Below are positions 32,421-52,658 of a DNA stretch of 64,000 nucleotides, piece after piece. The position numbers were made by a program, and so were the translations under genes. The notes under the pieces are model-generated. The model was not told where the DNA came from, did not search any database, and was given only the letters and a program-made list of their open reading frames with translations. The DNA is from Rhizomicrobium electricum (GTDB taxonomy: Bacteria; Pseudomonadota; Alphaproteobacteria; Micropepsales; Micropepsaceae), in contig NZ_JAASQS010000010.1 in NCBI RefSeq assembly GCF_011762045.1, positions 1 to 64,000 of the forward strand, read 5' to 3'. Within the stretch, counting starts at the first letter, position 1, and the number at the start of each line of letters is the position of its first letter.

Positions 32421-33677
32421 TTATTCGGCGCTTTGGCGGATTACCGGTTCGACCGCTTCGTCCTCGAAGAAGCGAACATAATAGCCGAGACAGGCATAGC
32501 CGTTGGCTTTCGATCCCGTATCGTTGGCGATCGAGCCGACCCAATCGGCCTTTTGCATCAGTTCGCGCCGCACCCAGTTGCAGATGCTGATCGAGATGCC
32601 GTGCCGCCGGGCGGTGTCCCGGATCAGCGCCAGCTTTTCGATACAGATCGACTTCTCCGGCGCCATCCGCGAGCGCTGCTTGAGGTGGGTCTGGTTCTCT
32701 TCCATGAGATAGGACTGGAAGAACTCGGCCAGCCGCCCCGGATCGTAGTAGTTGATGTACTGCGCGATGAGCGACAGGTTGGCCAGATCGGCGGTCAAAA
32801 ATTCCGGCTTGATATTGATGACACCGGCATTCGCCAAATCCGACATGTAGTCTTCGACGAATTCGGGCGTCAGGTAGGGCAGGATCAGCGGCTGGCACAA
32901 GACGGAATCCGACACCAAGCCCATATCCTGGCAGTGCTGCATCACCTCCAGCCGATCCGCAATCGTACCGGCATGCGGCTCCAGAATGTTGCGAAGATAT
33001 TGGGGCATGATTCCGATCGAGCCGTTCCACTGGGCTTTGCCGGCCAACTGGCGCGCCAACGACAAGATGGTATCGCCGCGATGGGCGACGCGGACCTGCT
33101 TCATGCCTGCCTTGGAACAGATGAAGAGGCGCACCCGCGAGTTGGGGTGACGGTCGTAGTGATCGATGAATGTCCTGAGAACGTCATGCGCGACGCCGGA
33201 AACCAGCAGAGGTTCGCTGAACGCGTCGGTCTTGGGCGAAAAATAGTAGAAGAGGTTCTTGTCCGTATTGCGTTCCAGCGAGGCCTTCAACTTCTCGGCA
33301 TAGTTCGTGTAGACGGTAATCGGCTTGCACTGATTGCCGTCGGTCACCAGACAGTACTGACAGGAAATCGAGCACGACCCGGAGGACGGCGTGATTTCGT
33401 AGACATTGGTCGGGCAGATGTTGGTGTAGTTGTGAATCTCCAACTCCTGGTCGGTCGGAACCTTTTCTTCCAGATAGGTCGATCCGGGCTGGAGCGCGTT
33501 GTTGTCGAACAACATCTTGTAGCGTGCGGAGCCCGCGGCCAGCGCGGCGCGAACCTCGGGTGAGACGGGATATGGGAGCCCAAGCGAATCGATCAGTGAG
33601 TCATCGACCATCAGGGGCTTGAAGTTGGGAAGGCGATGGGCATCGCCATGCGTTTCCAGATCAGCGTAGATTGGCAT
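32421..33677 (-). CDS. radical SAM protein, spore-photoproduct-lyase-like
   Basis: A 418-residue radical SAM enzyme with the cluster motif CSISCQYC (Cys102, Cys106, Cys109; a CX3CX2C spacing). Flanking sequence (ITPSSGSC before, then YFSPKTDAFSEPLLVSG) resembles the SPL/DNA-repair-photolyase branch of the superfamily and not the SPASM peptide-modifying branch. Additional Cys occur later (QHC, VLC, SIC, YAC). A GAGGAC site lies 7 bases before the MPIYADLE start. It is the last gene of the left arm, 37 bases after the phosphopantetheinyl transferase, so it is presumably part of peptide biosynthesis as a C-C bond forming, epimerising or desaturating tailoring enzyme. The reaction is unknown. Confidence 0.8.
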   Translation of the reverse strand: MPIYADLETHGDAHRLPNFKPLMVDDSLIDSLGLPYPVSPEVRAALAAGSARYKMLFDNNALQPGSTYLEEKVPTDQELEIHNYTNICPTNVYEITPSSGSCSISCQYCLVTDGNQCKPITVYTNYAEKLKASLERNTDKNLFYYFSPKTDAFSEPLLVSGVAHDVLRTFIDHYDRHPNSRVRLFICSKAGMKQVRVAHRGDTILSLARQLAGKAQWNGSIGIMPQYLRNILEPHAGTIADRLEVMQHCQDMGLVSDSVLCQPLILPYLTPEFVEDYMSDLANAGVINIKPEFLTADLANLSLIAQYINYYDPGRLAEFFQSYLMEENQTHLKQRSRMAPEKSICIEKLALIRDTARRHGISISICNWVRRELMQKADWVGSIANDTGSKANGYACLGYYVRFFEDEAVEPVIRQSAE

Positions 33678-33714
33678 TGTTATGTCCTCAATGATCAGCG
33701 AGGTCTCGCCGCGT

Positions 33715-34413
33715 TCACGCAAATTTCGCCTGGAGTTGTCCCTCATGGGAAACCCAGGCCGTCAAGTCGTCGCCGCACAAACAGCGGCTTTCCACCGCGC
33801 CGTCTATTCCGTCCCAGGCCAGAGCCAGGACATGACGGGGCGTCGGCCGGGATCGCCACAGCGTCCAACGCCGTGATGGTCCCAGCGCCCGGTCTTGCTG
33901 CACTTCGATTTCGGAAAGCGACAGAGACAGCCCCTTCCCTTCGGCCTTGATCACCGCTTCCTTGGCGGTCCAAAGCGCCAGAAACGCGTCGTCCCAGTCT
34001 CCGGCGCGCGCGAGCGCCGCTCGCTCGGAAGCGTTCAAAACCGATTGCACCGCATCCCGACATGGGAGGGCTGAGCCCAGCGTCTCAACATCGATACCTA
34101 TCGGCGAACGGAGCGATACGGCCACTGCGGACAAACCGGTCGTGTGAGATAAGTTGAACGGCAACACTGCCGTTTCCGCCAAGAACGGCTTGCCGAATGG
34201 ATCGGCGGCAAACCGCAGCGCCGCAGCACTGCGGCCGGGAAATGCTTGCGCCAATATCAGGCGCTTCAAGGCATGCGCCGCGACAAACGCCACACGGTCC
34301 TGCGTCCGGACAAAACGGTCGGCACGCGCGATCTCGCTGTCGTCCAGCACGCCCAGCCATTCCGGCGGCACGCTTTTCATTCCGAAAAGATCGACAGCAT
34401 AGACCCGAGGCAT
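33715..34413 (-). CDS. Sfp-type 4'-phosphopantetheinyl transferase
   Basis: A 232-residue transferase that primes carrier domains by moving phosphopantetheine from CoA to the Ser of LGGxS. Diagnostic motifs are present: PFNLSHTTGLSAVAV, GIDVETLG (Mg-binding Asp and Glu) and WTAKEAVIKAEGKGLS. It should activate the four T domains of the synthetase at 35529. It begins 3 bases after the stop of the small membrane protein and precedes the radical SAM gene by 37 bases, so it is in one operon with both. Confidence 0.92.
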   Translation of the reverse strand: MPRVYAVDLFGMKSVPPEWLGVLDDSEIARADRFVRTQDRVAFVAAHALKRLILAQAFPGRSAAALRFAADPFGKPFLAETAVLPFNLSHTTGLSAVAVSLRSPIGIDVETLGSALPCRDAVQSVLNASERAALARAGDWDDAFLALWTAKEAVIKAEGKGLSLSLSEIEVQQDRALGPSRRWTLWRSRPTPRHVLALAWDGIDGAVESRCLCGDDLTAWVSHEGQLQAKFA

Positions 34414-34416
34414 AGG

Positions 34417-34617
34417 TCACGTCGGCGAATGGCTGGCACTGGCGGCGGTGTCACGCTTTTCCGGCTTTATCGGATCGGACGCCCAAAGGATGATCAGGCC
34501 AACAATAGGGGTCAGAGCCAAGGAACAGAAAAAGTATCCCCAGAACCCGAACCGCCTATTCCGGCCGATCCAGCCGACGACAACGCTTGCCAGGGCACAC
34601 AGAAATAATGCTCCCAC
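34417..34617 (-). CDS. small two-helix membrane protein
   Basis: A 66-residue protein with a short hydrophobic helix at residues 2-16, a basic GRNRR turn and a longer helix at about 23-46 (FWGYFFCSLALTPIVGLIIL), then a polar tail. Small membrane proteins with this FWGYFF...LTPxxGLI layout are widespread and uncharacterised. It is 3 bases upstream of the phosphopantetheinyl transferase on the same strand, which strongly suggests it is a true gene of the operon. Its role is unknown; membrane anchoring of the pathway or immunity are possible. Confidence 0.65.
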   Translation of the reverse strand: MGALFLCALASVVVGWIGRNRRFGFWGYFFCSLALTPIVGLIILWASDPIKPEKRDTAASASHSPT

Positions 34618-34737: not shown

Positions 34738-35277
34738 TTAACTGGCGGCCTCTTTTTTGGCGTGAAGGTCGGTAGCGGCTTTCTTGCCGGCACAGAACTC
34801 TTCGAGGAAGACCTTCTTCATCTTGCAGGCATCGAAATCCAGGATCGTGCCGCCAGCTTCATAATGCTGCGCAAATACCTTGCCGACAGCATAGGTCGAA
34901 GCCCCGAAAACGATCGGCATCGTCGCCACACTGAACGTCGTCCCGACCAGGGGAATGAACTTCAGAAGACTGACGGCTGCCTCTCCCACGGCCATGGGCG
35001 CGATCCCGCCCAGGAGCGACGTCAAAATGGCCTTGCCGCGATCCTCCTTGAACGGAACTCCGTATTCCGCCGAGAGCTTCTTGATCAGATCGAGTTGGAC
35101 CGCCATTGCGCCGAGGATGTCCACCACGGGGAGCGGAACCAGTGCAACCCCCATGGCCATCAAGATGTGATTCCTCGAGAGCACCTCAACACGCCGCGCC
35201 CGCTCAACAGGATCAGCTGAAGTAACAGGAGCGTCTGCCACGGGATCAGACGGCTTTTTATTGCCTTTTTCAGACAT
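34738..35277 (-). CDS. DUF697 family membrane protein
   Basis: A 179-residue protein of the DUF697 family, known from YcjF-like and GTPase-associated proteins. The core is NHILMAMGVALVPLPVVDILGAMAVQLDLIKKLSAEYG, followed by GKAILTSLLGG and a hydrophobic stretch around residues 105-135 (FIPLVGTTFSVATMPIVFGAST). It has a charged N-terminal tail and a C-terminal Lys-rich tail. No GTPase gene is next to it. It is the first gene of the left arm, divergent from the synthetase. The start with GAGG 8 bases upstream was chosen over a longer frame. Its part in peptide production is unknown; a membrane-stress or immunity role is possible. Confidence 0.8.
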   Translation of the reverse strand: MSEKGNKKPSDPVADAPVTSADPVERARRVEVLSRNHILMAMGVALVPLPVVDILGAMAVQLDLIKKLSAEYGVPFKEDRGKAILTSLLGGIAPMAVGEAAVSLLKFIPLVGTTFSVATMPIVFGASTYAVGKVFAQHYEAGGTILDFDACKMKKVFLEEFCAGKKAATDLHAKKEAAS

Positions 35278-35528: not shown

Positions 35529-38500
35529 ATGACAGCCCTCTCCCCGCCTCAGACGATGCTTCGCGCGACCGCTGACGGTCCTTGCAAGCGTTGGCCGGCG
35601 GAGCGATTTCACGAATGTTTTGAAGCGATAGCGGATCGCAGCCCCAGTTCGGCAGCGATCATCTCCGACACGACCGTTTTGACGTATTGGGACGTCGAGG
35701 TTCGGGCCAATGCCCTCGCTCGCGCATTAGTCGCCCACGGTTTGGCTCAGGAAGAGCCGGTCGGTGTTCTCACCGAGCGGTCGGGCCTGCTTCCCATCGC
35801 CCTCCTCGCAATCTTCAAGGCTGGTGGCGCGTATGTGCCGATGGGCGCGGATCTTCCGGCCGATCGACTCGTCAGCATGATCCAGCAATCGAAAATGCGC
35901 TGTTTGATTGCGCTCGATGGACTGGAACCACCCGATACGATTGTAAGCGCTCTTGAGGGAAACGCGTCCGCCGAAGAAGGAATTGCCATCCTTCGACCCG
36001 AGGAGATCCCTCCCGACGCGATTGCCCGCGACGGAGCTCGGCTCAAGACGTTGGGCAAGCCGACCGATCTTGCCGCCATCCTGTTCACGTCCGGATCGAC
36101 CGGCCGCCCCAAAGGCGTGCAGTTACAGCACGATGCTGTCCTGAACATGGCCTTTGGGCATATCGATGCCCAAGCGATCACGTCTGAAGACCGCGTCCTA
36201 CTCGCCACCGCCCCTGGTTTCATTCTGGGGTTTCGCGAGCTTTGCATGCCCCTGTTGGCCGGAGCCGCTCTGGTCCCGGCACCGCGCGCGCTGCTCGACG
36301 AACCGGCAAACCTTCTCGCGTTGATGTCCCGCCACCGGGTCAGCGTGGCTTTCTTCACGCCGTCGTATCTGCGCTTGTTCGATGGCGCCATTCCAAGCGG
36401 TTTGCGCTGCCTGATCACGGCGGGCGAACGGCCGAATGCCGACGATGCCCGGAGTTACGCCCGTACAATCGAGGTGTGGAACGTCCACGGAGCGACCGAG
36501 GTCTGCGGTACCATCTGCATGATGCGGGTGGCCCCGAACGGACACGGTCCGATTCCGAGCGGACGCCCCTTTGCCAACACCTCCGTCCATCTCCTGAATG
36601 CAGAGGGACAAGACGTTGCTCCCGGCGAGACCGGAGAGATCTACGTTGTGGGCCAAGGCCTTGCCCGCGGTTATCTCGATCAGCCCGATCTGACGGCCGC
36701 CAGTTTTGTGCCGACGCGTTACGGCCGCGCCTATCGCACGCACGATCTGGGACGGTGGTCGCCGGAGGGAAATCTCATCACCCTCGGTCGCACCAGCGAT
36801 ATGGTCAAAGTCTCGGGCCAGGCAGTCTCGCTCGGAGAAATCGAACAAACCCTATTGCTCCACCCCGATGTTCGTCGTGCCTTCGTCGTCCAGCACGACG
36901 GCAAGCTGATCGCATTTGTTGAAAGCACGGCGGAGCCGAAGCCGCTGGAAGACTGGCACGCGTTTCTGGGGAAAACCCTGCCGTCCTACATGTACCCGGC
37001 GCAGGTCGAAACCCTTGCCGAGATGCCCATCAACCCAGCGGGCAAAGCCGACCGCCAAGCGCTCGAGGCGCTCGCGGCGGATCTGCACGCCAGCGAAAGA
37101 CGAGGACTGGCTCCTCAGGGCGCGCTGGAGCAACAGATCGCCGGCGTATGGGAAAACGTCCTTGGGATGCATCCGGTGCTGCGGGACGACAACTACTTCG
37201 CCTTGGGCGGAACCAGTCTTCTGGCCATCGTCATCAGCCAAAAACTCCAGGCGTCAGGCATCACGGTCGCGGCGCGCACGATTTTGACATCGCCGACGGT
37301 CGCCGCTTTGGCCGGGAAGATCATCCAGACCCCCGCCCACGATTCTTCTACCCTTGAGCGTATGGAGGGTGTCGCCACCAAGGGCCAGGAAGATTTCTGG
37401 ATCGCGGCAACCCTCGGCCTGGCCACGACCGACGCCCAGATCGCTCGCATTTTGACGGTCAGAGGAAACGTTCCGACGCCGGAGCACTGGCGTGCGGCAT
37501 GGACGAACCTCTTGGCGCGCCACGCCGCGCTGCGCACGGCGTTTCATGCCGGCGCCGATGGCACGATCCGGTGGCGGACGGAGGCGAACGACGATCTTCC
37601 GCCCGGCGCCGGCTTTCGCATCGACGACGGCCTCGCTGCCGACGCGGGGAAGCGCCTGATCGCTGAGCAGGCGACGGCCCCCTTCTCGCTCACCGAACCG
37701 CCTCTGGCCCGCGCCGGATTGGTACGGCTGGTCACAGGCGAGACGCTGTTTTGGTTCAGCCTGCACCATGCCGCGGCCGACGGCGTCTCCGCCGCCCTCC
37801 TGCAGGACGAGATGCATGCCCTGCTGCTCGGTCGTCCGCTGCCGGAAGGGCTCAACGGACCCGCGATCGCCGCGCAAGCGGAAGAGGCGTATCTGGCATC
37901 GCCCCAGGCCGAACACGACAGCCGGTATTGGCGCGATCTGCTCGACGGCCTCGCGTCCGCCCCGGACGAGCCGGTCTTCAGCGAACTGCCCACCGATCAC
38001 AGCCGCCCGTCCTATCCCAGTGGAAAATCCTCTGTCCGCCTGGTCGAACGGCTCGATGCGGCGACGGTCGCGACGCTGACCCGCTTGGCGCAAGCGCAAC
38101 AGGTAGGACTTCACGCCCTGCTCTTGACCCTGCTGGCCGCGGAGACCCGGCGGCGCAGCGGACGATCCACCATCCTCCTGGGCACCAGCGTCTCGGTTCG
38201 TCCGGCTTGGGCCGAAACGGCGGTCGGCTATTTCGTCAATCTGCCGCCGCTCGCCTTGTGCGGCAACCAAGCCGATACACTTTCCGCTGCGATCCGCACC
38301 ACCCAAACCGTTTTGGCCGAAGCCCTGGAGCACGCCGCCTATCCGTCCGGCTTGCTCTATCGCGAATTCCGCCAACGCCACCCCGAGGCCCGGTCGCAGG
38401 CCCGAACCTCGCTGTTCGATATTTCGCTTACGGCCAATCCGTCGCGAATCTGCGGCAATGCCGAAACGGATTTTTCTCTTTCCCCATACGTCTTGCCCGA

Positions 38501-41500
38501 TGAGGTCACCGCGCCCGCGGCCGGTCTCGATCTCGCATTCAGCCACGAGCCGTTGCCGGATGGCGGCTTGGAATTGGCGCTGGTCTGGAATCCCGATGTC
38601 TATCGCCAGGAGACCGCCGAGGCATGGCTCAAATCCTTTACCGCCTGGGCTCGCTGGCTGGCCGAGGATCGGATGCGGATCGAAGCCCCCGTTCCCGCGC
38701 TGCGGACGGACGAAGTCGCCACCCTCGCGCAATGGGAAAACGGGCCGTCGGTCTCACGTCCGGCCAAGCGCGTGCATGAACTGATCGAGGCCATTGCGGA
38801 CACCGATCCGAACCGGATTGCCATCGTCGCAGACACCGGCGAGTGGACCTTTTCGGTGCTGGAGCGCGAAGCCAGCCGCATCGCGCAGCTTTTGATCCAT
38901 CATGGCGTTGAGCACGGCGATGCCGTGGCCGTTCTGACGGAATGTTCGCCCTCGCTGCCCGCGGCGGTGGTTGGCATTTGGAAAGCCGGCGCGGTCTATC
39001 TGCCGCTGCCGGTCGAACAACCCTCCGAACGGCTGGCCTTCATCGCCAAAGATGCGAGCGCGAAGATCGTGCTGGCGCTCGACGGCCTCGAACTGCCGGC
39101 GACTCTGTCGGCGATGACGGTGCTGCGTCCGGAGACCGAGCCGGACATTTCCGCCGAGCGCCCCGCGTGCTCCGGGTCGCCGCACGATGCCGCCTATATC
39201 ATCTACACCTCGGGGACCACTGGCGCGCCCAAAGGCGTGGTCCTGCCGCATGCAGGTGTGGTCAATGTCGCCTACGCGACGGCGGAAGCGATCGGGCTGA
39301 CGTCAGAGGATCGCGTCGCCTTCGTGGCAACACCCGGCTTCGATGCCTCGGTTTGGGAATTGACGCTGGGACTGGTGAACGGCGCGGCGATCGTGCCGGT
39401 GTCCCGCAATCTGCGCGATGACCCCTGGGCGCTGAAACAGAAATACACGGCCAGCGGTGTCACCGTTGCCTTCCATGCGCCGTCCTACTTGCGCATATCG
39501 CGAGAGACGCCGTTCGCCGGCTTGCGGGTTTTGCTCAGCGGTGGCGAAGCGCCGACCCATGACGATGCCCGCGCCCATGCGTATCTCGACTTCTGGAATC
39601 CCTATGGTCCCACCGAGGCCACGATCATCGTCAGTTTGGGCAAAGTGAATCCGGCGGACGATCGTCCGTTGACCGTCGGCCGCCCCATTTCCAATACGTG
39701 CATCTCGATCCGCCGCGATGATGGCACTCGCGTTCCGCCGGGCACGACGGGAGAAGTGTGGCTCGGCGGCGTCGGCGTGACGTCGGGCTACCTCGGTAAC
39801 CCGGAACTGACCGCGAAACATTTCGTCGAGACATCCGAGGGGCGCTTCTATCGGACCGGCGATCTGGCGCGGTGGACCGTTGACGGACGGCTGGAATTGC
39901 AGGGCCGCATCGACACCCAGGTGAAGTTGCACGGCCAGCGCATCGAACTCGACGAAATCGAGCGGACGCTGCAAAGCCATCCGGCCGTCACCGAGGCGGT
40001 AGTTGTGATGGCGGCGGCGGCCAGCGAAACCAAAGCGCTGCACGCCTTCGTCCGGCTTCGTCCGGACGCATCGATGCCCGAAGAAGAAAGCTGGCGGGCT
40101 TATCTTTGCGCCCACCTTCCCCAACACATGATTCCGGCATCGATCACGGAGGTAGCCTCATTTCCGTTGATGGCGAACGGCAAGCGCGACCGCGGCGCTC
40201 TGCTGACACGCCTGCAAACCTCCAAAAGCCAGGGCAAAGCCAAAACGCCGCCAACCGACGGACTGGAACGCCGCATTGCCAAGGCGTGGAGCGACCTCCT
40301 CGGCGAGCCCGTCGCCCGCGAAGACAATTTCTTCGCTTTGGGCGGCAACAGCCTGCTTGCGGTCGCACTGGCGCATCGGCTTTCCCTCGACTTGCAGCGA
40401 CCGGTTCCGGCCCGCGATTTGTTTGCGGCACCGACACTGGCGGGATTTTCCGCGCGGGTCGCCGAGATTCTGCACAGCGATACCGCAGCTGCTCCGGTGC
40501 TCTCCGGCGTCTTATCGAAAACCGATCTCGCCACCGAAGGCCAGCGCGAGTTCTGGGTTGCCGAAGCGGCCGGCCTGGATACCGGAACATTCACCATTCC
40601 GCTGATCCGGATCGTCGACGCGTATCCACTCGAGGCGTGGCGGGCGGCGTGGACCACATTGGTAGCGCGGCATGCCAGCTTGCGCACATCGTTTGTGATG
40701 GACGCGGACGGCGTTCTCTGCCGCACGATCGCGCCGCCGCAAGAGGGGCCAGCGCCGTTCGAATTTTCCGCCCAGCCCGACAGAACTGCGGCTATTGCCT
40801 TCGTCCGCCAGCGTCAGCAAGCGCCGTTTTCGATGGCGGCTGCACCGCTGTGGCGCACCGGCCTTGTTACGGCCGCCGATACGGGCGAGCAGCTATTCTG
40901 GTTGGCGCTGCATCATTCAGTAGGCGACGGACAATCGCTCGGGATTCTCGTCGAAGAACTGGAACGCCTGCTGCGCGGCGACGCACTGCCGGATGTGACG
41001 GGCGATTTTGCCGACACGGCGTCACGCGAGCAGGCTTATCTTGCAGGACCCGAATGCCGCGAGGACGCGCGCTATTGGGACGATCTGTTGGCCGGCCTTC
41101 CCGATGCCACGTTCGACGAAGCCCCGCTGGACACCGCGCGATCCACCACGGCCACACCGGGAACGCATCGGTTCGAAGCCACGCTCGATGCCGCAACCGC
41201 CCAAAGACTGAAGACACTGGCGCGCGCCCACAACACCAGCCTGCACGCGGTGATGCTGAGCCTTCTGGCCATCGAGGCGCGGAGGCGTATCGGCCACTGC
41301 GATGTCATTATCGGCACCACCGCATCCGTTCGCGAAACCGCGGCCGAGGCGCGCGTGGTCGGCTATTACGTCAATATGCTGCCGGTCCCCGTTCATGTGC
41401 CTCCGGGCGCTTTGTTTGCAGACATTTTGGACGAGACCGGCAAGCGGCTCAGCGGTGCCTTGGCGCACGCGCGCTATCCCTTCGCGCGCATCTATCAAAA

Positions 41501-44500: not shown

Positions 44501-47500
44501 GCCGGTCCCGTGCCGGATCACCAAAGAGATGCCGGTCGAGAAGGTTCTGCAGACGATGCAGGCCGCATTGGCGGAAGGGTTGCAGCATGCCCGCTATCCC
44601 TTTGCCCGCATCTATCAGGATTTCCGCCGCGATCAGGCGGTGTCCCCGCATCCGGCGCGCTTCCCACTGTTCGATTTTGCGGTGGCGGAAAATCCGGGCG
44701 CCACGGACGATCAAATCGGACTCCATTTCGAAGCGCTTCGTTCGGATGAAGACTATCGCCTCCGCCCCAATACGCCCGCGCAGGATATGGTTCTGGTCCA
44801 TGAAGGCCGGACGGACGGCAGCGTGCATTTGCAGTGGTACGCCAATGCCGCGCTCTACGAAAAAGATACCGCAGCCGCGTGGATGGACTCGCTGGTGGGA
44901 TGGGCAAGGCAGCTTGCCTCCGACGACCGCCCCGCGAACACGCCGGTACCGGTCTTGCTGCCGGCGGAAGCCGCGCTGCTCAAGCAGTGGGAATACGGAC
45001 CGCGCGTGCCGCTTCCGACGCCGGACTTCCCGGCCCGGTTCGAACAGTGGTGCACACTGCAGCCCGATCACCCTGCCGTCGTGACCGAACAGGGTATTCT
45101 CAGCTATGCCGCTGTGAATGCCCGTGCCGATGCTCTGGCGCAGGCCCTCAAAGAAAGTGGTTGTGCGCCGCACGAGCCGATCGGCGTGTTCACCGGCCGC
45201 TCCATCGCACTGCCGGAGACGGTTCTGGCGATTTGGAAAGCGGGCGGATGCTACGTTCCGCTGGCGAGCGAGCTGCCGGCCGAGCGGCTGGAATTCATCA
45301 TCCAGGACGCTGGAATAAAGCGGCTCGTCGTTCTCGACGGCCGCCCCCTTCCTGCGGCGCTGGCCGCGACCGGCTGTTCGGTTCTTCGTCCCGAAACTCT
45401 GACACTAGGTTCAGCGTGCAATCATCCCAAGCTCGATTGCTCCGGCCCGGCCTATGTCATCTACACCTCCGGTTCGACCGGCATTCCCAAAGGCGTCGTC
45501 CTTTCGCATCAAGGGTTGAACAATCTCGGCATCGCGCTTTCGGGCGCCCTGAACATCGCAGCCGAGGATCGTGTGCTGTTGACGGCATCGCCTGCCTTCG
45601 ACGCCTGGATTTCCGATCTTGCCATGGCCTGGGCGGCCGGAGCGGCGGTGGTTCCGGTGGTGCGCAGCGAGATGGACGATATTGCCGGCATGCGGGCCAA
45701 GCTGCCCCGGCTGGGTGTCACGGTGGCGACCTTACCGCCGTCGTATTTACGCTTGTTCGAACACGCCGATTTTCCGGGACTGCGTATCTTGATGACCGTC
45801 GGCGAGCCGCCCGTAGCTGCCGATGCACAGCGTTACGCGGCGCGTCTTCGCTACATCAACGGTTACGGCCCGACGGAAAACACGGCCGCAACGACGGTCG
45901 GCGCAATCGTCCCCGGCATGCCGCGCCTGACAACCGGAAGACCGCTCGCCAATATCGACGTTCATATTTGCGACGATCACGGCAATCCGGTGCCGCCGGG
46001 CTCTATCGGTGAGGTCTGGCTCGGCGGCATGGGACTGGCCATCGGCTATCTCAATCGCCCGGATCTGACGGCGGCAAGTTTTATCGAGACCCAATCCGGT
46101 CGGCGTTATCGTACCGGCGATTTGGGGCGCTGGACGTTGGCCGGCGATCTGCAAATCCTCGGCCGCTCCGATGGCCAGGTCAAGCTGCGCGGCCAGCGGA
46201 TCGAGTTGGGAGAAATAGAGCATCTCCTCGCCGCGCATCCGAGCGTGCGCCAGAGTGTCGTTCTGGTGGGGACCGAGAGCGACGACCGCCAAACCCTGTG
46301 GGGCTTTGTATGTCTCAAGCCCGAAGCCGACGAACCGCGCCAGGATGCATGGCACGCCTATCTGGCCGCCAAACTGCCCTCCTACATGGTGCCGTCGTCG
46401 GTCGTCCGGGTGCCGTCCATTCCCGTGAGCCATAGCGGAAAAATCGATCGGGCAGCCCTTCTTGCATTGGTGAGCGGCCAGAATGCGCTACCAGACGTAG
46501 CTGGACCTCTGCGGACGCCGCCAAGTTCGGAGATCGAGCAGCGCATTGCCCAAGTCTGGTCCGAGCATTTGAAGCGCTCCTTCATCGGCCGCGAGGACAA
46601 TTTTTTCGATCTCGGTGGCGACAGCCTCGGGGTCATCGCGGTGGTCAATCAGCTTCGCCGCACGTTCCGCTGCGCTATTACCGATCTCTACGAACATCCC
46701 CGCCTGGCCGACTTTGCAGCGGTTTGCCAGTACCGTCCCGAGCATCTTCACACGCTTATCCGCTCCGCCAAACAGCATTGGCGAGATTATCAGGCGACTC
46801 TCGCAGCCTATGAAGACGAACGTGATGCAGCCCTCGCGCCCGAATGGCGCGCTTACGAGACGCGCAATCTCGCCTATCGGGGCATTGCGACGGACCGCCG
46901 AGATTACGGCCACGTTCTCTTGACGGGCGCGACGGGGTATCTGGGCAGCTACGTTCTGCGCGAACTTCTGGCCGACACGACGAGACATGTCACGGCTTTG
47001 GTGCGCGGGGCCGACGACCGGACCGCGCGCGTGCGCCTCGGCGATGTCCTGCGGTACTATTTCGGCGACGAGAACGGGAACGCCTTGCTTAATGCACCGG
47101 GCCTGACCGTGCTGGCGTCGGATTTGCGCCGCGACGGCCTCGGTCTTGCGCCTCGGGATTATGACCGGACGGCGCAGGAGATTCAGGCAATCTATCATTG
47201 CGCCGCCAACGTCAAACATTTCGGCCATTACCGGGATTTCGAGGCCGACAACGTCGCCGCCACCGCCAGACTGCTGAACCTCGCCGCCCGTCGCTGCGCC
47301 GATTTTCATTATGTTTCGACGCTGTCGACCGGCGGCAAGGCGCCCGAAAGCGAGTTTCATCTCTTCACCGAATATGACCCCGTCCCCGATGTCCTGGATG
47401 AGAACTATTACGTTCGCAGCAAGCAGGAAGCCGAACGGCTGGTGATGGCCGCACGCGATTATCTGCCCAACGCCTCGATCCATCGCGTCGGCAACATCGT

Positions 47501-48026
47501 GTATGCGGCCGACGGCGGGCCGTTGCAGCGCGATATCGCGCAGAACGCGTTCTTCCGGCAATTGGCGGCGTTCCTGAACCTCGGAACGGTTCCGGATGAT
47601 ATGCACATCTGGCTTTGCCACGTGGATGTGGTGGCGCATGGAATTGTGCTGCTCGCCGAAACCCAGGCTTTGGCGAACGAAACGCATCACCTGGAAAACA
47701 GCATCCGGCGCACCCTCGCCTCCTTCATCGCCGAGGCCGAAAGCATTCGCGTCACTGCCTTCGACGAATTCCTCGACCGCCTGGAGACCGCTATCGACCA
47801 GCCCGAGGCCAATACCGCGTTGACCGAAACGCTGGAGAATTTCGGCCTCTATCGCGGGATTTCGCCGCAGCCCCGGTCGCGGCGGTTCGAAATCGTATCC
47901 ATACGGACCCAAATGCTTCTTACTCAGCTCGGCCTCGCCTGGCCACCAATTCCCGAACAAGGACGGCGGGCCGTTTTGCATCGCGCAGTACGTCTCTTCG
48001 CCCCAACGAAATCGGCTCCCCCATGA
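35529..48026 (+). CDS. four-module non-ribosomal peptide synthetase with terminal reductase
   Basis: A 4165-residue synthetase with order A1-T1-C2-A2-T2-C3-A3-T3-C4-A4-T4-R. Carrier serines are Ser563 (LGGTSL), Ser1608 (LGGNSL), Ser2648 (LGGHSL) and Ser3699 (LGGDSL). Condensation motifs HHxxxDG start at residues 746, 1795 and 2828 and are intact. Adenylation specificity codes read by alignment to GrsA are A1 ILRSIAVGTK, A2 DAWSLGPIIK, A3 DVSSVGAISK, A4 DASSMVGAAK; none gives a firm substrate. A1 lacks the amino-binding Asp (Ile232). No epimerase or starter C domain is seen. The reductase has TGATGYLG at 3799 and Tyr3961-x3-Lys3965, so the chain should leave as an aldehyde or alcohol. The ATG at 35529 has a weak ribosome site; an in-frame TTG lies at 35517. 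Confidence 0.93.
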   Translation: MTALSPPQTMLRATADGPCKRWPAERFHECFEAIADRSPSSAAIISDTTVLTYWDVEVRANALARALVAHGLAQEEPVGVLTERSGLLPIALLAIFKAGGAYVPMGADLPADRLVSMIQQSKMRCLIALDGLEPPDTIVSALEGNASAEEGIAILRPEEIPPDAIARDGARLKTLGKPTDLAAILFTSGSTGRPKGVQLQHDAVLNMAFGHIDAQAITSEDRVLLATAPGFILGFRELCMPLLAGAALVPAPRALLDEPANLLALMSRHRVSVAFFTPSYLRLFDGAIPSGLRCLITAGERPNADDARSYARTIEVWNVHGATEVCGTICMMRVAPNGHGPIPSGRPFANTSVHLLNAEGQDVAPGETGEIYVVGQGLARGYLDQPDLTAASFVPTRYGRAYRTHDLGRWSPEGNLITLGRTSDMVKVSGQAVSLGEIEQTLLLHPDVRRAFVVQHDGKLIAFVESTAEPKPLEDWHAFLGKTLPSYMYPAQVETLAEMPINPAGKADRQALEALAADLHASERRGLAPQGALEQQIAGVWENVLGMHPVLRDDNYFALGGTSLLAIVISQKLQASGITVAARTILTSPTVAALAGKIIQTPAHDSSTLERMEGVATKGQEDFWIAATLGLATTDAQIARILTVRGNVPTPEHWRAAWTNLLARHAALRTAFHAGADGTIRWRTEANDDLPPGAGFRIDDGLAADAGKRLIAEQATAPFSLTEPPLARAGLVRLVTGETLFWFSLHHAAADGVSAALLQDEMHALLLGRPLPEGLNGPAIAAQAEEAYLASPQAEHDSRYWRDLLDGLASAPDEPVFSELPTDHSRPSYPSGKSSVRLVERLDAATVATLTRLAQAQQVGLHALLLTLLAAETRRRSGRSTILLGTSVSVRPAWAETAVGYFVNLPPLALCGNQADTLSAAIRTTQTVLAEALEHAAYPSGLLYREFRQRHPEARSQARTSLFDISLTANPSRICGNAETDFSLSPYVLPDEVTAPAAGLDLAFSHEPLPDGGLELALVWNPDVYRQETAEAWLKSFTAWARWLAEDRMRIEAPVPALRTDEVATLAQWENGPSVSRPAKRVHELIEAIADTDPNRIAIVADTGEWTFSVLEREASRIAQLLIHHGVEHGDAVAVLTECSPSLPAAVVGIWKAGAVYLPLPVEQPSERLAFIAKDASAKIVLALDGLELPATLSAMTVLRPETEPDISAERPACSGSPHDAAYIIYTSGTTGAPKGVVLPHAGVVNVAYATAEAIGLTSEDRVAFVATPGFDASVWELTLGLVNGAAIVPVSRNLRDDPWALKQKYTASGVTVAFHAPSYLRISRETPFAGLRVLLSGGEAPTHDDARAHAYLDFWNPYGPTEATIIVSLGKVNPADDRPLTVGRPISNTCISIRRDDGTRVPPGTTGEVWLGGVGVTSGYLGNPELTAKHFVETSEGRFYRTGDLARWTVDGRLELQGRIDTQVKLHGQRIELDEIERTLQSHPAVTEAVVVMAAAASETKALHAFVRLRPDASMPEEESWRAYLCAHLPQHMIPASITEVASFPLMANGKRDRGALLTRLQTSKSQGKAKTPPTDGLERRIAKAWSDLLGEPVAREDNFFALGGNSLLAVALAHRLSLDLQRPVPARDLFAAPTLAGFSARVAEILHSDTAAAPVLSGVLSKTDLATEGQREFWVAEAAGLDTGTFTIPLIRIVDAYPLEAWRAAWTTLVARHASLRTSFVMDADGVLCRTIAPPQEGPAPFEFSAQPDRTAAIAFVRQRQQAPFSMAAAPLWRTGLVTAADTGEQLFWLALHHSVGDGQSLGILVEELERLLRGDALPDVTGDFADTASREQAYLAGPECREDARYWDDLLAGLPDATFDEAPLDTARSTTATPGTHRFEATLDAATAQRLKTLARAHNTSLHAVMLSLLAIEARRRIGHCDVIIGTTASVRETAAEARVVGYYVNMLPVPVHVPPGALFADILDETGKRLSGALAHARYPFARIYQNHRNRHALARHPARYPVFDIAVTENPPASAPQMRRRAAAYERWETSPGEDMVLSHELQPDGTLLLQWHVNAAIYSRDTAERWLTSLTGWADWLTESPERAQSLLPGLLPQEAELLEVWEYGPQVERPSLRFHELFEQRLDGRGNHPAVLTQSSQQTYAEIERDANTLAHALIQDGAERGSVIGVLTERSAALPAAVLGIWKAGATYLPLSADLPPERLAFMAEDAGLTHLVVLDGLAVPPELADAAPDIVRPETLAAEENRPHVSGSPDDIAYILYTSGSTGRPKGTRICHRSYINMVLSTGEIYGLTPDDRTLMFSSPSFDVSLSDIGLPLAFGATICPLPYDVLRSPTAFQDFLRALKITVADVTPSYLRLFEGADLPTLGILVTGGEAPAPADIRTYAPRLRYYNAYGPTENTISSTMALLSAETDFLSAGRPLPNTSVHICNADGNPVPPGVIGEVWLGGCGLAQDYVGRPDLTAAAFVATPHGRRYRSGDLGRWRANGELEIIGRADDQVKLNGIRVELGEIDSALRTHPDVAQAVVLLDRGDGNDHRLWAFALPRSGRTLPTEEGWRTYLAERLPAYMIPATVIAVDAIPLSDSGKVDKAALKRLLSERSRATEDTELQDGLERDIARIWKELLGVQELHRDDNFFALGGHSLLAIALAHRLEKLLGHPVPARDLFVEPTLRGFAARVRQWTPVAASDVRSDRATEGQREFWVAEQAGLDTRGFVIPLTLVARNAEDIPQSVWRAAWTAVVDRHEALRTGFRTDDAGVLRRFVAAPGTADLEFCACADLPAALSYCQARQSEPFAMVSPPLWRAGIVRVAETKQILFWMALHHSVGDGVSLGILTDDLARFLKQQTPPPLPSSFDLVAGREETYLSSPACQSDARYWQKTLAELSTESDTPFDEWPLDFARPNGRTAQATKGVHIFHACLDETTATRLRAFAHKHGASLHALFLTLLALEVFRRSGRPAFLLGTAASTRETAGEADLVGYFVNMLPVPCRITKEMPVEKVLQTMQAALAEGLQHARYPFARIYQDFRRDQAVSPHPARFPLFDFAVAENPGATDDQIGLHFEALRSDEDYRLRPNTPAQDMVLVHEGRTDGSVHLQWYANAALYEKDTAAAWMDSLVGWARQLASDDRPANTPVPVLLPAEAALLKQWEYGPRVPLPTPDFPARFEQWCTLQPDHPAVVTEQGILSYAAVNARADALAQALKESGCAPHEPIGVFTGRSIALPETVLAIWKAGGCYVPLASELPAERLEFIIQDAGIKRLVVLDGRPLPAALAATGCSVLRPETLTLGSACNHPKLDCSGPAYVIYTSGSTGIPKGVVLSHQGLNNLGIALSGALNIAAEDRVLLTASPAFDAWISDLAMAWAAGAAVVPVVRSEMDDIAGMRAKLPRLGVTVATLPPSYLRLFEHADFPGLRILMTVGEPPVAADAQRYAARLRYINGYGPTENTAATTVGAIVPGMPRLTTGRPLANIDVHICDDHGNPVPPGSIGEVWLGGMGLAIGYLNRPDLTAASFIETQSGRRYRTGDLGRWTLAGDLQILGRSDGQVKLRGQRIELGEIEHLLAAHPSVRQSVVLVGTESDDRQTLWGFVCLKPEADEPRQDAWHAYLAAKLPSYMVPSSVVRVPSIPVSHSGKIDRAALLALVSGQNALPDVAGPLRTPPSSEIEQRIAQVWSEHLKRSFIGREDNFFDLGGDSLGVIAVVNQLRRTFRCAITDLYEHPRLADFAAVCQYRPEHLHTLIRSAKQHWRDYQATLAAYEDERDAALAPEWRAYETRNLAYRGIATDRRDYGHVLLTGATGYLGSYVLRELLADTTRHVTALVRGADDRTARVRLGDVLRYYFGDENGNALLNAPGLTVLASDLRRDGLGLAPRDYDRTAQEIQAIYHCAANVKHFGHYRDFEADNVAATARLLNLAARRCADFHYVSTLSTGGKAPESEFHLFTEYDPVPDVLDENYYVRSKQEAERLVMAARDYLPNASIHRVGNIVYAADGGPLQRDIAQNAFFRQLAAFLNLGTVPDDMHIWLCHVDVVAHGIVLLAETQALANETHHLENSIRRTLASFIAEAESIRVTAFDEFLDRLETAIDQPEANTALTETLENFGLYRGISPQPRSRRFEIVSIRTQMLLTQLGLAWPPIPEQGRRAVLHRAVRLFAPTKSAPP

Positions 48027-49696
48027 ACATTCCGTCGCGCATCGGCATCCTCGGCTTCCTTCAGCGGGAAACGCACGCTCTCAACAAAAAGCTGTTCCTG
48101 CTGACGGCCGTATCGGGCGTCGCCAACGCCATGAATCTGGCGGTCATCAATGCATCGGTCGATACGCTCAAAACCGGCGGGCCGTCGTGGCAGCATTTTC
48201 TGTGGTTCGGCCTCTCGATTGCGCTGTTCGTATACTCGTTGCGCTACGTGCTTTACGAATCCAGCCGGATTGCCGAGAACGCGATTTGCAGCGTCCGGGT
48301 GAGACTGGCCGACAAGATCCGCCGGTCCGATCTCCTCGCCCTGGAAACCATCGGCGGCACCGACATTCATGCCCGCATCAGCCGGGATACGGCAGCCATA
48401 GCGCAATCCGCGCGCCCGCTCTTTTCGGCGGCGCAGTCGGCCGTCATGATCGTCTTTACGCTGGGCTATATCGCGACGGTCTCGCCGGTTGCCATGCTCT
48501 TATGCGCCGGGCTCATCGCCGGTGGCGCCGCGGTGTACCTCAAAGACCGCAAGGGATACGAGGAGGGGCTGAAAAAGTCGTCCGAGAAGGAAGACGAGCT
48601 TTTCTCCTCGCTCACCGGATTATTGGCGGGCTTCAAGGAACTCCGCATCAATCAAGCGAAAAGCGACGACGTATTCGGCGACTTCACGGAGACGGCCGGT
48701 CAGGTGCGCGATGTCCGGACACGGGTCATGATGTTGTTCTCGAACAACATCGTTCTCGTCGAGATGTTCCTCGTCCTCCTCTTGGGAGCGATCGTCTTCG
48801 TGCTTCCGATCTTGTCGGGTTCCTTCACCGGATCAGCAACGAAAATCGTGGCCGCGATTCTGTTTTTCTTCGGGCCCCTCGGCAACGTCGTCACCATGAT
48901 TCCGGTGATATCGCAGGTCAACGTCACGATCGGCAATCTCCAGCGCCTGGAGACAACGCTGGACGATACCTTGGCAAAATCCGCGAGTTACGAAGACGCA
49001 CCGATCATCGACATGAGCGCGTTCAAGGCCATTCGCTTCGACGGCATCGGCTTCACCTATCTCGATCCGGACGGCAATGCGACGTTCCGGGTCGGCCCGA
49101 TCGACTGCACAGTCCGCCACGGCGAGATGCTGTTCCTGGTCGGCGGCAACGGCAGCGGCAAGACGACATTCCTGAAATTGTTCACGGCGCTCTATCAGCC
49201 GCAGCAGGGCGCGATCCGCGTCGACGACGAGCAAATCGGTCCCGCCAACATCCAGTCCTACCGCAACCTGTTCTCGGCGATCTTTTCGGATTTCCACCTG
49301 TTCGACAGGCTGCACGGCTTGCGCGATGCCGCACCGGAGCGCGTCAACGCTCTGCTCAAGCTCATGGGGATTTCGCACAAGACGGCCTTCGTCGACGGGT
49401 ATTTCACCAACACCCGTCTTTCGACCGGACAACGCAAGCGCTTGGCGCTGGTCGTGTCCTATCTCGAAGACAAGGCGGTGTATGTATTCGACGAGGTCGC
49501 GGCCGACCAGGATCCGCATTTCCGGCGCTATTTCTACGAGACCATGCTTCCGGAACTCAAAAAGGCGGGCAAGACGGTCGTGGTCGTAACCCATGATGAC
49601 CGCTATCACCATATCGCCGATCGCGTTCTGCAAATGGACTACGGGACATTGCGCGACACGTCCAATCCCGCAGATCCCAACTCTACCAATACCTGA
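48023..49696 (+). CDS. cyclic-peptide-type ABC exporter (SyrD/PvdE-like)
   Basis: A 557-residue fused membrane-ATPase half-transporter. Six helices fill about residues 1-330. The ATPase follows, with Walker A GGNGSGKTT near 374, signature LSTGQRKRLAL at 466 and Walker B YVFDEVAADQDPHFRRYFY. The LSTGQ signature and the DE-x-AADQDP block are hallmarks of the exporter group that includes SyrD and PvdE, which move non-ribosomal lipopeptides or siderophore precursors out of the cytoplasm. Its ATG overlaps the synthetase stop (ATGA), so it is made with it and probably exports the product to the periplasm. Confidence 0.92.
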   Translation: MNIPSRIGILGFLQRETHALNKKLFLLTAVSGVANAMNLAVINASVDTLKTGGPSWQHFLWFGLSIALFVYSLRYVLYESSRIAENAICSVRVRLADKIRRSDLLALETIGGTDIHARISRDTAAIAQSARPLFSAAQSAVMIVFTLGYIATVSPVAMLLCAGLIAGGAAVYLKDRKGYEEGLKKSSEKEDELFSSLTGLLAGFKELRINQAKSDDVFGDFTETAGQVRDVRTRVMMLFSNNIVLVEMFLVLLLGAIVFVLPILSGSFTGSATKIVAAILFFFGPLGNVVTMIPVISQVNVTIGNLQRLETTLDDTLAKSASYEDAPIIDMSAFKAIRFDGIGFTYLDPDGNATFRVGPIDCTVRHGEMLFLVGGNGSGKTTFLKLFTALYQPQQGAIRVDDEQIGPANIQSYRNLFSAIFSDFHLFDRLHGLRDAAPERVNALLKLMGISHKTAFVDGYFTNTRLSTGQRKRLALVVSYLEDKAVYVFDEVAADQDPHFRRYFYETMLPELKKAGKTVVVVTHDDRYHHIADRVLQMDYGTLRDTSNPADPNSTNT

Positions 49697-49736: not shown

Positions 49737-50615
49737 ATGAAAAAGTTTCTGGAAAAGTTTCTGCAGTGGTTCACCGATGTCCGTCGGCACTTCAAAGCCC
49801 ACGTCCGGCGGCAAAAGCCGTATTGGATCCTCGGCGGATTCCTGTTCGTCTTCGCGGCCGTATTCTTCCACGACACCTACATCGTTTCGATTCACTCCGG
49901 ACAATTGGGAATACTGTGGCGGCGTTTGGGCGGCGGGACCGTCATCGACACGGTGTACGGGGAAGGAATTCACCTGATCCTGCCGATCAACAAAATGTAC
50001 GTCTACAACGTCCGCACCCAACAGTTCAGGGACACGATCGATGCCCTGACTGTCGACGGCTTGAACGTTCGCGTCCGGTATTCCGTCCGCTACTTTCTGC
50101 CGGCGGAAACCCTGCCGCTGTTGCACCAGCGCGTCGGGCCGGATTACGCCAACGTGGTAATCCGCGCGGAAATGCGCTCGGTCGTCCGATCCGTATTCGG
50201 CCAGTACAAACCGGAAGAGATCTACACGACGCAGAAGGCTATCCAGGAACGGGTCAGTGAGCTGGCGAAGATACGCCTCGAAGCGCGCTTTATCGATCTC
50301 GACGACGTCCCGCTCGAAAGCATCACGCTGCCGCCCAGGATCTCGCAGGCCATCGAAAGCAAGATGGCCTACCAACAACTGGAAGGTGAATACGTCTACA
50401 AGCTGTCGATTGCGGAAAAAGAAGCCGAGCGCCGGCGCATAGAAGCGAATGGACTGAAGGTCTATAATGACACCGTCGACAAAAGCCTCACGTCGTCTGT
50501 CTTGAGCTGGTATGGCGTCCAAGCGACCCAAGAGCTTGCCAAATCGCCCAACGCCAAGACCGTGGTCATTGGAGCGGGAAAATCCGGCCTGCCGATTATT
50601 CTCGGAAAGGACTGA
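49737..50615 (+). CDS. SPFH/prohibitin-like membrane protein
   Basis: A 292-residue band-7 protein. A cytoplasmic basic N-terminus (about 27 residues) leads to one helix (YWILGGFLFVFAAVFF, about 29-46). Then come the SPFH beta-rich domain (GQLGILWRRLGGGTV..GIHLILPINKMYVYNVRTQQ) and a coiled helix rich in E/K/A (YKLSIAEKEAERRRIEANGLK). Such proteins form large oligomeric rings that organise membrane domains and regulate proteases. It follows the exporter by 40 bases and precedes the binding protein by 4, so it is co-transcribed with the peptide genes. Linking a prohibitin-like scaffold to an export system is unusual. Confidence 0.85.
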   Translation: MKKFLEKFLQWFTDVRRHFKAHVRRQKPYWILGGFLFVFAAVFFHDTYIVSIHSGQLGILWRRLGGGTVIDTVYGEGIHLILPINKMYVYNVRTQQFRDTIDALTVDGLNVRVRYSVRYFLPAETLPLLHQRVGPDYANVVIRAEMRSVVRSVFGQYKPEEIYTTQKAIQERVSELAKIRLEARFIDLDDVPLESITLPPRISQAIESKMAYQQLEGEYVYKLSIAEKEAERRRIEANGLKVYNDTVDKSLTSSVLSWYGVQATQELAKSPNAKTVVIGAGKSGLPIILGKD

Positions 50616-50619
50616 CGGG

Positions 50620-51786
50620 ATGAGAAAACTGCTCTTCTGGGCGGCGGGGCTGGTGGCGCTGGTGGCGTTGGTCCTTCTTTTGATGCCGCAGTGGACGTCG
50701 CCGCAGAAAATGGGCGCGCATCGGTTCGCCTATCTCGAAAAGCACCATGACGAACTGGTGGTCGGCATAAGTTGGCCGATCGCGGAGGAACAGGACGGCA
50801 TGGTTGATGGACTGACTCTGGCACGAGACGAGATCAATGCCCGCAAGATTCCGGGCATCCCGCCGATCCGCTTGGTGATCCGCGACGACAAGAACGATTG
50901 GAGGACGGCGCGCGACGTCGCCCTCGAATTCGCCAATACGCCCGAGATGAGCGCCGTCATCGGCTATTATGAAGACGGCGTCGCCATACGAGCCTCGCAG
51001 ATTCTGGAAGCCAGTCGGCTTTTGCACTTTGCCGTGAATGCCAACAACCGGGCCATGACCTCTCATGGCTACAAATATATCGTCCGCACCGTTCAGGCCA
51101 CCGACCAGATTTCACGGTTCCTTGCCGTTTCCTCCCCGTCGGGCCGTAACCCGCAGAAGTACGCGATGGTCTGGGAGGGCGACGCCTACGGCCAGGACAT
51201 TGCCTATCAGTATCGCATCGCCCAGGACGCGCTCGGGAGTGAATTGGTTTATCAAGCCCCTTATCCTGCCGGCCGCCCAGACTTCCGCCTGACAGTCAAT
51301 CAACTGAAGGGGATCAAGGTCGACGTCATCATGTTCTCGTCCGGAAACGATGCGAATACGGCTGCGTTTCTGCGCCAGGCCCGTCGCGTCGGTATCACAG
51401 CGCCTATTCTGGTTGCCTGCGACCGGAGCAGCGATTTTGCCGGCATCTCCGCCGCGGACTTGCGGAACACCACGTTTATCCGTCTCTACAACGTTGCCGC
51501 CAAAACGCCGGAGAACCGGAAATTCGTAGCGGCCTTTCGGGCCCGCTACGGCCGAGACCCCGATACGTCGGCGGCGCAAGGCTATGACGCGCTTCAAATC
51601 CTGGCGAACGCGGTCAGGATCACAGGAACATTGAACCCGCTCGATCTAGCATTCACCGTCCGATACAAGCCCGCCTGGATCGGAGCCAACGGCGAATATC
51701 GCTTCGATGGCAACGGAGAGTTGAAGGAAAAACCGCTTTTCGCGGAACGCCACGATTCCGAAGGCAACGTGACGGTAGCCAAATGA
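50620..51786 (+). CDS. membrane-anchored LivJ-like (type I) solute-binding protein
   Basis: A 388-residue protein starting with one hydrophobic helix (LLFWAAGLVALVALVLLLMP, residues 4-23) with no clear cleavage site or lipobox. A periplasmic binding fold type I follows: VVGISWPIAEEQDGMVDGLTLARDEINARK, the VIGYYEDGVAIRASQILE loop and the YGRDPDTSAAQGYDALQIL C-terminal region typical of branched-chain amino acid/amide receptors. No permease or ATPase of the Liv type is nearby. It is therefore probably an anchored sensor or chaperone in the periplasm, perhaps for the exported peptide, acting with the SPFH protein encoded 4 bases upstream. Confidence 0.8.
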   Translation: MRKLLFWAAGLVALVALVLLLMPQWTSPQKMGAHRFAYLEKHHDELVVGISWPIAEEQDGMVDGLTLARDEINARKIPGIPPIRLVIRDDKNDWRTARDVALEFANTPEMSAVIGYYEDGVAIRASQILEASRLLHFAVNANNRAMTSHGYKYIVRTVQATDQISRFLAVSSPSGRNPQKYAMVWEGDAYGQDIAYQYRIAQDALGSELVYQAPYPAGRPDFRLTVNQLKGIKVDVIMFSSGNDANTAAFLRQARRVGITAPILVACDRSSDFAGISAADLRNTTFIRLYNVAAKTPENRKFVAAFRARYGRDPDTSAAQGYDALQILANAVRITGTLNPLDLAFTVRYKPAWIGANGEYRFDGNGELKEKPLFAERHDSEGNVTVAK

Positions 51787-52649: not shown

Positions 52650-52658
52650 GTGTCTGGC

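Follow-up and report, generated by a model that had tools for sequence, protein, structure and literature searches.

A reductase-terminated peptide synthetase cluster of Rhizomicrobium electricum and the recurrent SPFH, ABC exporter and DUF697 genes at its side, a putative export module

Introduction

The exporter PvdE belongs to pyoverdine export with periplasmic maturation, terminal reductase (R) domains of nonribosomal peptide synthetases (NRPSs) yield imine/pyrazinone or alcohol products in known pathways, and SPFH oligomers form cages in HflK/C and flotillin. Relatives of all three lie together in a cluster of eight genes of Rhizomicrobium electricum, contained in the stretch of 64,000 nucleotides analysed here (contig NZ_JAASQS010000010.1, hereafter the window), where an R-terminated NRPS adjoins an ATP-binding cassette (ABC) exporter, an SPFH/prohibitin-like protein, a DUF697 membrane protein and a periplasmic binding protein (PBP). 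The SPFH subfamily, the exporter and DUF697, accompanied at part of the loci by the PBP and by a small two-helix protein, recur widely as a set. Sequence comparison leads us to propose, with moderate confidence, that the cluster has two layers, a reductively releasing NRPS and a module for export and periplasmic handling that would be indifferent to the product.

A flotillin cage has been reported (PMC11260169). A precedent for an SPFH protein close to a nonribosomal peptide exporter comes from the balhimycin producer, where a paraslipin was recovered when the exporter Tba was used for proximity labelling (PMC11960670). In the NRPS/polyketide synthase (PKS) cluster of Thalassobaculum sp. OXR-137 a cyclic peptide exporter is followed by a prohibitin gene, and prohibitins were suggested as possible interactors of the cluster (PMC12016528). 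The didemnin cluster comprises 11 NRPS and two PKS modules with 19 flanking open reading frames (ORFs), of which eight encode transporters and eight hypothetical proteins (PMC10811503), and a 2017 review states that the enzymes of didemnin transport are not known (PMC5577590). In the searchable literature no description of the whole module set was found, the Thalassobaculum exporter, prohibitin and NRPS/PKS genes being the one related case, and queries pairing DUF697 with SPFH or with nonribosomal peptides returned no relevant paper in the searchable full text, outside which most subscription journals lie.

Linkage of the SPFH, exporter and DUF697 genes

A seven-row profile of the SPFH subfamily (A2) found the protein in 19 of 385 genomes drawn from the class, at 21 loci, and in 17 of 398 genomes of the phylum. 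The exporter family TIGR01194 was present at E<=1e-60 in 26 of the 385 class genomes (24 above the curated cut-off), covering all 19 SPFH-positive ones; the two sets of 385 genomes agree in their handles, and the hypergeometric probability of such co-occurrence, kinship ignored, is about 1e-26. A TIGR01194 exporter lies within about 2 kb of the SPFH gene, on the same strand, in 17 of the 21 class loci, and in L011 and L012, both annotated plasmid loci, the SPFH and exporter genes share an overlap of 4 bases. Many exporters of this family have no SPFH partner, only 19 of 41 exporter matches being found within 10 kb of one. DUF697 occurs within 10 kb of 16 of the 21 class loci, and 18 of the 29 DUF697 matches in the 19 genomes fall within this distance, where 0.15 would be expected.

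A tblastn search with the SPFH protein matched 25 of 72,556 plasmid records, and at four of the five loci opened (Skermanella, Rhodobacteraceae SC52, Azospirillum Sp7 p1 and Tistrella pTM3) a same-family ABC gene and DUF697 adjoin the SPFH gene. The reciprocal search with the DUF697 protein matched 18 of the 72,556 records. Their organism names are Azospirillum (15), Tistrella, Skermanella and Rhodobacteraceae, and all of these had been matched by the SPFH search as well; seven SPFH records, from Bacillus, Caballeronia, Kovacikia, Pseudanabaena and Sulfurovum, had no DUF697 counterpart. That housekeeping SPFH and DUF697 genes merely chance to neighbour an NRPS might be argued from how widespread both are, PF05128 matches being present also in 4 of 14 control genomes and 11 of the 29 DUF697 matches lying away from SPFH, but against the excess of DUF697 neighbours, the genome co-occurrence and the reciprocal plasmid search such a coincidence is very improbable, and we reject it on these counts unless the sampling were strongly clonal.

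The neighbourhoods of 35 further loci, each selected on SPFH, were read for the partner families; they comprise the 20 class loci other than that of the window and the 15 loci that the phylum search added. Within the stretches read, DUF697 was found in 28 of them (23 within 3 kb), an exporter match above 100 bits in 20 (18 within 3 kb) and a Peripla_BP_6-type protein in 15 (14 within 3 kb); 16 loci hold an adenylation (A) domain, and 18 an A or condensation (C) domain. When the proteins of 41 loci, drawn from at most 30 genera, were clustered, DUF697 was found in 33, an ABC protein in 30, NRPS (in some cases PKS) in 27 and a binding protein in 19. The two-helix protein was found in 17, a count that takes in the window and the locus of the congener G434. 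The families were built by single linkage on stop-to-stop frames, with PKS genes counted under NRPS and a few antisense shadows included; genera are given because several loci are close relatives, and named plasmid hosts could coincide with genera counted separately.

Biosynthetic genes beside the module

The candidate view of the set as strictly an NRPS module had to be narrowed, as some loci carry PKS, YcaO or C39-ABC genes and some no recognisable assembly line. PKS genes occur at L039 and L056, a partial YcaO match at L055 and peptidase-C39 exporters at L083 and L084, in each case without NRPS domains in reach, and L082 holds both a C39-ABC exporter and an A domain. No clear assembly line was seen in the stretches read at loci such as L014, L040, L044, L053 and L085. 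The pair of SPFH and exporter genes of L052 is adjoined by genes for YcaO and for a ThcOx/nitroreductase-like (cyanobactin-oxidase-like) protein (12205-14556; 17809-19791), with an M1 peptidase between the latter two, and we regard this locus as a candidate cluster for an azole-containing ribosomally synthesised and post-translationally modified peptide (RiPP).

On plasmid pTM3 of Tistrella mobilis (L015/L037) the DUF697, ABC exporter and SPFH genes lie about 7.5 kb from synthetase genes, whose run from 674932 to about 729400 contains 11 A domains (counted after manual merging of 15 profile pieces), two ketosynthase (KS) domains recovered by blastp (a KS motif pattern found none), a protein with C, A, ketoreductase (KR) and thiolation (T) domains in the order C-A-KR-T, and a type II thioesterase. 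By module count these synthetase genes fit the didemnin cluster (L015/L112/L113). Among the ORFs scanned beside the pTM3 module, a subset of those present, no CAAX family was found that would correspond to the CAAX protease gene didK, and no LivJ-like protein was detected in the 20 kb stretch of the Tistrella locus.

Proteins of the module and their possible roles

The first 31 residues of the SPFH protein carry a net charge of +7 and are followed by a transmembrane (TM) segment, and the SPFH domain is therefore predicted to be periplasmic. The binding protein also has an N-terminal TM segment, and its nearest PDB chains are 4mlc, 3ip5, 3ipc and 1usg, although aligning the pocket residues favoured no particular ligand; its counterparts look lipoprotein-like by eye in three loci. 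The DUF697 protein was modelled as all-helical (pLDDT 84, pTM 0.77), and its fold returned no confident match in Foldseek (best E 1.3, CysZ, TM score 0.30), nor in VIA-align 2, where the best Z of 6.3 (9e0h_A, rmsd 9.7, 112 aligned) is common for helical models.

Fusions of the Peripla_BP_6 domain were encountered at three loci. In L082 (4779-8261) and L084 (5135-7774) it is joined to thrombospondin type 3 (TSP3) repeats and an OmpA domain, adjoining C39-peptidase ABC exporters, and would thus apparently be pinned to peptidoglycan; in Azospirillum L014 (8036-11356) its partner is a mechanosensitive-channel domain, and the gene lies some 8 kb away from the SPFH gene of a DUF697/ABC/SPFH set that includes a stand-alone thioester reductase, with no NRPS match nearby. 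Proteins of the SBP_bac_3 family adjoin the module in two loci.

We propose that the exporter would carry the product to the periplasm, that the SPFH protein, predicted to form oligomers facing the periplasm, might organise an export microdomain together with the membrane-embedded DUF697 and two-helix proteins, and that the tethered binding protein may capture the product so that it can be passed on or matured. The gene association behind this scheme is observed, and the mechanism is our conjecture. As the same genes are found beside NRPS, PKS and RiPP-type genes, they are more likely to serve product handling than a biosynthetic step. A bolder version, which we hold only tentatively, sees in the SPFH subfamily, DUF697, the two-helix protein and the tethered PBP a new product-agnostic machine, in which a periplasmic SPFH cage round the ABC exporter would capture NRPS, PKS or RiPP products, and bacteria would thereby set up an envelope compartment devoted to secreting natural products. 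In the window the cargo would be a peptide freed by reduction and tailored by a member of a new and very rare family of radical S-adenosylmethionine (SAM) enzymes.

Several observations speak against this two-layer scheme. Four of the 21 class SPFH loci have no adjacent exporter (two have it at 33-43 kb and two have none on the contig), the TIGR01194 matches of two of the 19 genomes (G131 and G311) fall under the curated cut-off, and Pfam DUF697 was not found within 10 kb of five of the 21 loci. On the fifth plasmid locus opened, Caballeronia L013, there is no DUF697 match and the exporter is about 18 kb off. In 17 of the 35 loci the stretch read contains neither an A nor a C domain, many of these loci being on short contigs, and six (L039, L040, L052, L055, L083 and L085) still show none after being extended or read to the contig end; L047, L081 and L085 lack both DUF697 and a strong exporter match, two of the three being on contigs shorter than 9 kb, and L085 shows none of the module partners at the thresholds used. 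Less than half of the loci carry the PBP, 20 of the 35 having no detected Peripla_BP_6-type protein. The PBP may also bind amino acids in the manner of LivJ, to whose model NF011933 it scores 81.9 bits, under the cut-off of 477.

The membrane anchor of the PBP in the window, the lipoprotein-like forms and the two OmpA fusions would equally suit a role in self-protection, where SPFH, DUF697 and the binding protein sequester or neutralise the product in the envelope and the ABC protein exports alone, and the lack of a bond to any single biosynthetic class is in line with this too. The tightest link, however, is that of the SPFH gene to the exporter gene, in its frequency, shared strand and, in L011 and L012, overlap, and we consider self-protection unlikely. 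Binding proteins without permeases commonly act as sensors, and a PBP that gauges the periplasmic product and signals through SPFH and DUF697 to throttle export or synthesis would agree with the SBP_bac_3 neighbours and the mechanosensitive-channel fusion; yet with the PBP missing from so many loci, and no regulators among the families identified in the clustering (most clusters carried no annotation), a sensor appears less probable still, and export with periplasmic handling remains the explanation that we favour.

Synthetase, predicted product and tailoring

The initial annotation of the window had described a tetramodular synthetase of the form A-T-(C-A-T)3-R, and its domains and catalytic motifs bear this out and show it to be intact. 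Pfam lists four AMP-binding, three Condensation and four PP-binding stretches and one NAD_binding_4, the reductase region being matched also by the related short-chain dehydrogenase/reductase (SDR) models Epimerase and 3Beta_HSD, and four carrier-protein serines, three HHxxxDG motifs, the R-domain motif TGATGYLG and a YVRSK motif are in place. Likewise as described, neither a fourth Condensation-type domain (epimerization or starter) nor a thioesterase is listed by Pfam at E<=0.001, and no MbtH was found in the window by a crude six-frame motif pattern, which is no profile search.

The nine-residue codes of the A domains (A1 ILRFIAVGT, A2 DAWFLGPII, A3 DVSDVGAIS, A4 DASTMVGAA) are the same in G434; the Stachelhaus positions were set by hand on motifs, that of Asp235 in A1 being checked against LgrA. 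Where LgrA carries this Asp, which binds the alpha-amino group, A1 has Ile in all five sequences compared, and residue 1 is therefore probably no ordinary alpha-amino acid, the likely substrate being an acid without the usual alpha-amino group. The first inference of a tetrapeptide is thus not supported as it stood. Comparison with the nearest structures gave no information on the A1 substrate, and from code tables we presume, as weak guesses, a Leu-like (aliphatic) residue for A2, an Arg-like (basic) one for A3 and a Tyr-like (aromatic) one for A4.

In our scheme the 4'-phosphopantetheinyl transferase (PPTase) would arm the synthetase, A1 would load the acid lacking the alpha-amino anchor, three amino acids would then be added, and the R domain, which predicts reductive chain release, would free the chain as an aldehyde or possibly an alcohol. 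An aldehyde that does not persist, being lost by cyclisation to an imine/pyrazinone or by reduction to the alcohol, is a real possibility, if not our first choice: known terminal R domains give such products, and the models of the aureusimine NRPS AusA (NF047350, 1424.7 bits, cut-off 2500) and of the myxochelin NRPS (NF038078, 1325 bits, cut-off 2300) match the synthetase below their cut-offs, but an imine can close on the N-terminus only where a free amine is present there, and Asp235 is missing from A1. The synthetase is in any case a further member of the known reductase-terminated kind, and the cluster is apparently functional.

The radical SAM enzyme of the initial annotation stands on the motif CSISCQYC (CX3CX2C), at residues 125-132 of a 441-residue ORF and invariant in the three orthologues compared, and falls short in the profile searches. 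No Pfam model, PF04055 included, matched at E<=0.01, and NCBIfam gave sub-threshold matches only, to the spore-photoproduct-lyase and PA0069/Rv2578c families; against the spore photoproduct lyase models TIGR04070 and TIGR03886 the protein reached 17 bits, with cut-offs of 400 and 438. It probably makes one C-H modification. Radical tailoring, the choice between aldehyde and alcohol, and periplasmic delivery, all proposed at the outset, are matters that we too infer.

The protein is very rare. In the order set (96 genomes, 69 of them of the window's genus, its own genome counted) close orthologues occur in three of the 69 congeners, namely the window genome, G033 (96%) and G434 (86%), and the other genera gave one 26% partial match. 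Besides the window's own, one 27% partial match was found in the class (385 genomes) and none in the phylum (249 genomes), and plasmid records and viral contigs gave no match; a genome-contig scan with two peptide patterns, which distant relatives could escape, gave one match, apparently a G033 contig. The proposal to search with the trio of radical SAM enzyme, SPFH and binding protein was not borne out, since the window-type radical SAM protein occurs in 0 of the 35 SPFH loci scanned and SPFH, exporter and DUF697 recur instead, and its rarity leads us to reject this protein as a hallmark of the system. Two of the 35 loci, L040 and L044, do hold radical SAM proteins, of other families; in the latter (6192-11144), on a contig of 11.8 kb, two radical SAM genes, one weakly B12-binding-like, and a TauD-type oxygenase adjoin the SPFH, exporter and DUF697 genes.

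An orthologous synthetase is found on Azospirillum plasmids. The N-terminus of the window NRPS matched seven Azospirillum records at about 58% identity, with the next at 35% (best 8 of 2,677 records), and its R domain matched Azospirillum at 60-62%, with the next at 34% (best 8 of 107 records). In all three regions read the gene order is synthetase, TauD/TfdA oxygenase, ABC protein, a second ABC protein with the annotation of a cyclic peptide exporter, then alpha/beta hydrolase, DUF697, small protein and SPFH. The NRPS domains are 48-65% identical to those of the window, the A4 code is identical, and the codes of A1 to A3 differ at 1-3 of nine positions; the radical SAM protein, the PPTase and Peripla_BP_6 gave no match in the three stretches. 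The statement that no pathway with this gene set is known therefore needs qualification, as an orthologous cluster exists, without the radical SAM enzyme and PBP and, to our knowledge, uncharacterised. It probably makes a similar scaffold, and its iron- and 2-oxoglutarate-dependent oxygenase may, as a guess, stand in for the radical SAM step. Two points count against this part of the scheme: equivalent chemistry of the two enzymes is itself guesswork, and the radical SAM label derives from one motif and weak models, the structural model of the protein (pLDDT 37.6) being unusable.

Gene layout and conservation of the cluster

All genes named in the two divergent operons were found, four on each strand, and the exporter passes the curated threshold of the family that the initial annotation had likened to SyrD/PvdE (Table 1). 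Its ATG overlaps the stop codon of the NRPS gene. The likely starts of the radical SAM, exporter, PBP and DUF697 genes were placed inside their longest ORFs.

Table 1. Coordinates in the window of the cluster genes and of two domains of the synthetase.
Feature	Position	Strand	Remarks
Probable radical SAM protein	32421..33677	-	418 aa, ATG at 33677; ORF at its longest reaches 33746
Sfp/HetI-type 4'-phosphopantetheinyl transferase	33715..34413	-	PF01648 (ACPS) 64.1 bits, cut-off 25; G434 copy 61% identical
Small two-TM (two-helix) protein	34417..34617	-	About 66 aa, GTG start; motif GRNRxxGFWGYFxxSLxxTPxxGxIxLL
DUF697 membrane protein	34738..35277	-	179 aa; PF05128 50.6 bits, cut-off 27.7
NRPS, A-T-C-A-T-C-A-T-C-A-T-R	35529..48026	+	ORF opens at TTG 35517; start of orthologue at ATG 35529 (blastp alignment)
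A1 loading domain	35577..37106	+	Code ILRFIAVGT, without Asp235; bounds approximate
Terminal thioester reductase, NAD_binding_4 core	46920..47639	+	PF07993 129 bits, cut-off 20.1
Cyclic-peptide-type ABC exporter (PvdE/SyrD family)	48023..49696	+	TIGR01194 349.4 bits, cut-off 286.2
SPFH/prohibitin-like protein	49737..50615	+	Band_7 PF01145 101.9 bits, cut-off 23.6
Membrane-anchored type-I periplasmic binding protein, LivJ-like	50620..51786	+	388 aa; Peripla_BP_6 PF13458 132.3 bits, cut-off 31.7

Compared by blastn with about 53 kb of the congener G434, the window gave a single block (32465-51755, 74% nucleotide identity), and the flanks of the two loci gave no match at E<=1e-10. All eight genes are kept in G434, seven pairing in the same order by blastp and the two-helix protein by clustering, so that a lack of synteny in relatives, which would have refuted the initial annotation, was not observed. 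The flanking genes there are sigma/FecR/TonB on one side and TetR/HlyD/FUSC on the other, and the cluster has probably moved horizontally.

The window flanks hold glycosyl hydrolase/ABC genes on the left and beta-oxidation-type genes on the right; the latter (51885-56934: an SDR, a 3-hydroxyacyl-CoA dehydrogenase, two thiolases and an SDR) are not beside the G434 cluster. A 91-residue ORF antisense to the two-helix gene (34448-34723, + strand) is probably an artefact of the crude gene caller. ARAGORN found no tRNA genes in the window, and Rfam gave no match at gathering scores.

Significance and comparison with known systems

If our proposal holds, one membrane module of four or five genes would explain how unrelated peptide natural products pass the envelope in many proteobacteria, and it would probably serve the drug lead didemnin too. 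SPFH proteins would gain a concrete job linked to a substrate and DUF697 a functional setting, the module could be used as a search handle for hidden clusters whatever their biosynthetic class, and attention would be drawn to a tetramodular synthetase, so far unexplored, in the tractable plant-associated A. brasilense.

The plasmid clusters of A. brasilense, A. argentinense and strain TSH58 share with the window the orthologous synthetase, the TIGR01194-type exporter, DUF697, the small protein and SPFH, and differ in having a TauD/TfdA oxygenase, a further ABC protein and an alpha/beta hydrolase and in giving no match to the radical SAM enzyme, the PPTase or Peripla_BP_6 in the three stretches read. 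Release by a terminal reductase is common to the synthetases of the aureusimine and myxochelin type, whose NCBIfam cut-offs the NRPS of the window does not reach. The pyoverdine exporter PvdE falls in the same family, TIGR01194, as the exporter of the window, and we know of no SPFH/DUF697 module at its locus. In the presumed didemnin cluster of T. mobilis DUF697, ABC exporter and SPFH genes adjoin the synthetase genes as in the window, whereas the NRPS-PKS is larger and unrelated, the window-type radical SAM protein is absent and resistance-nodulation-division (RND) pumps are nearby. Thalassobaculum OXR-137 has the same pair of exporter and prohibitin genes beside a different synthetase, DUF697 and a binding protein being unmentioned in the accessible part of its description (PMC12016528). 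The parts of the module thus belong to known families, and there is a realistic chance that, taken together, they form a new kind of export machine.

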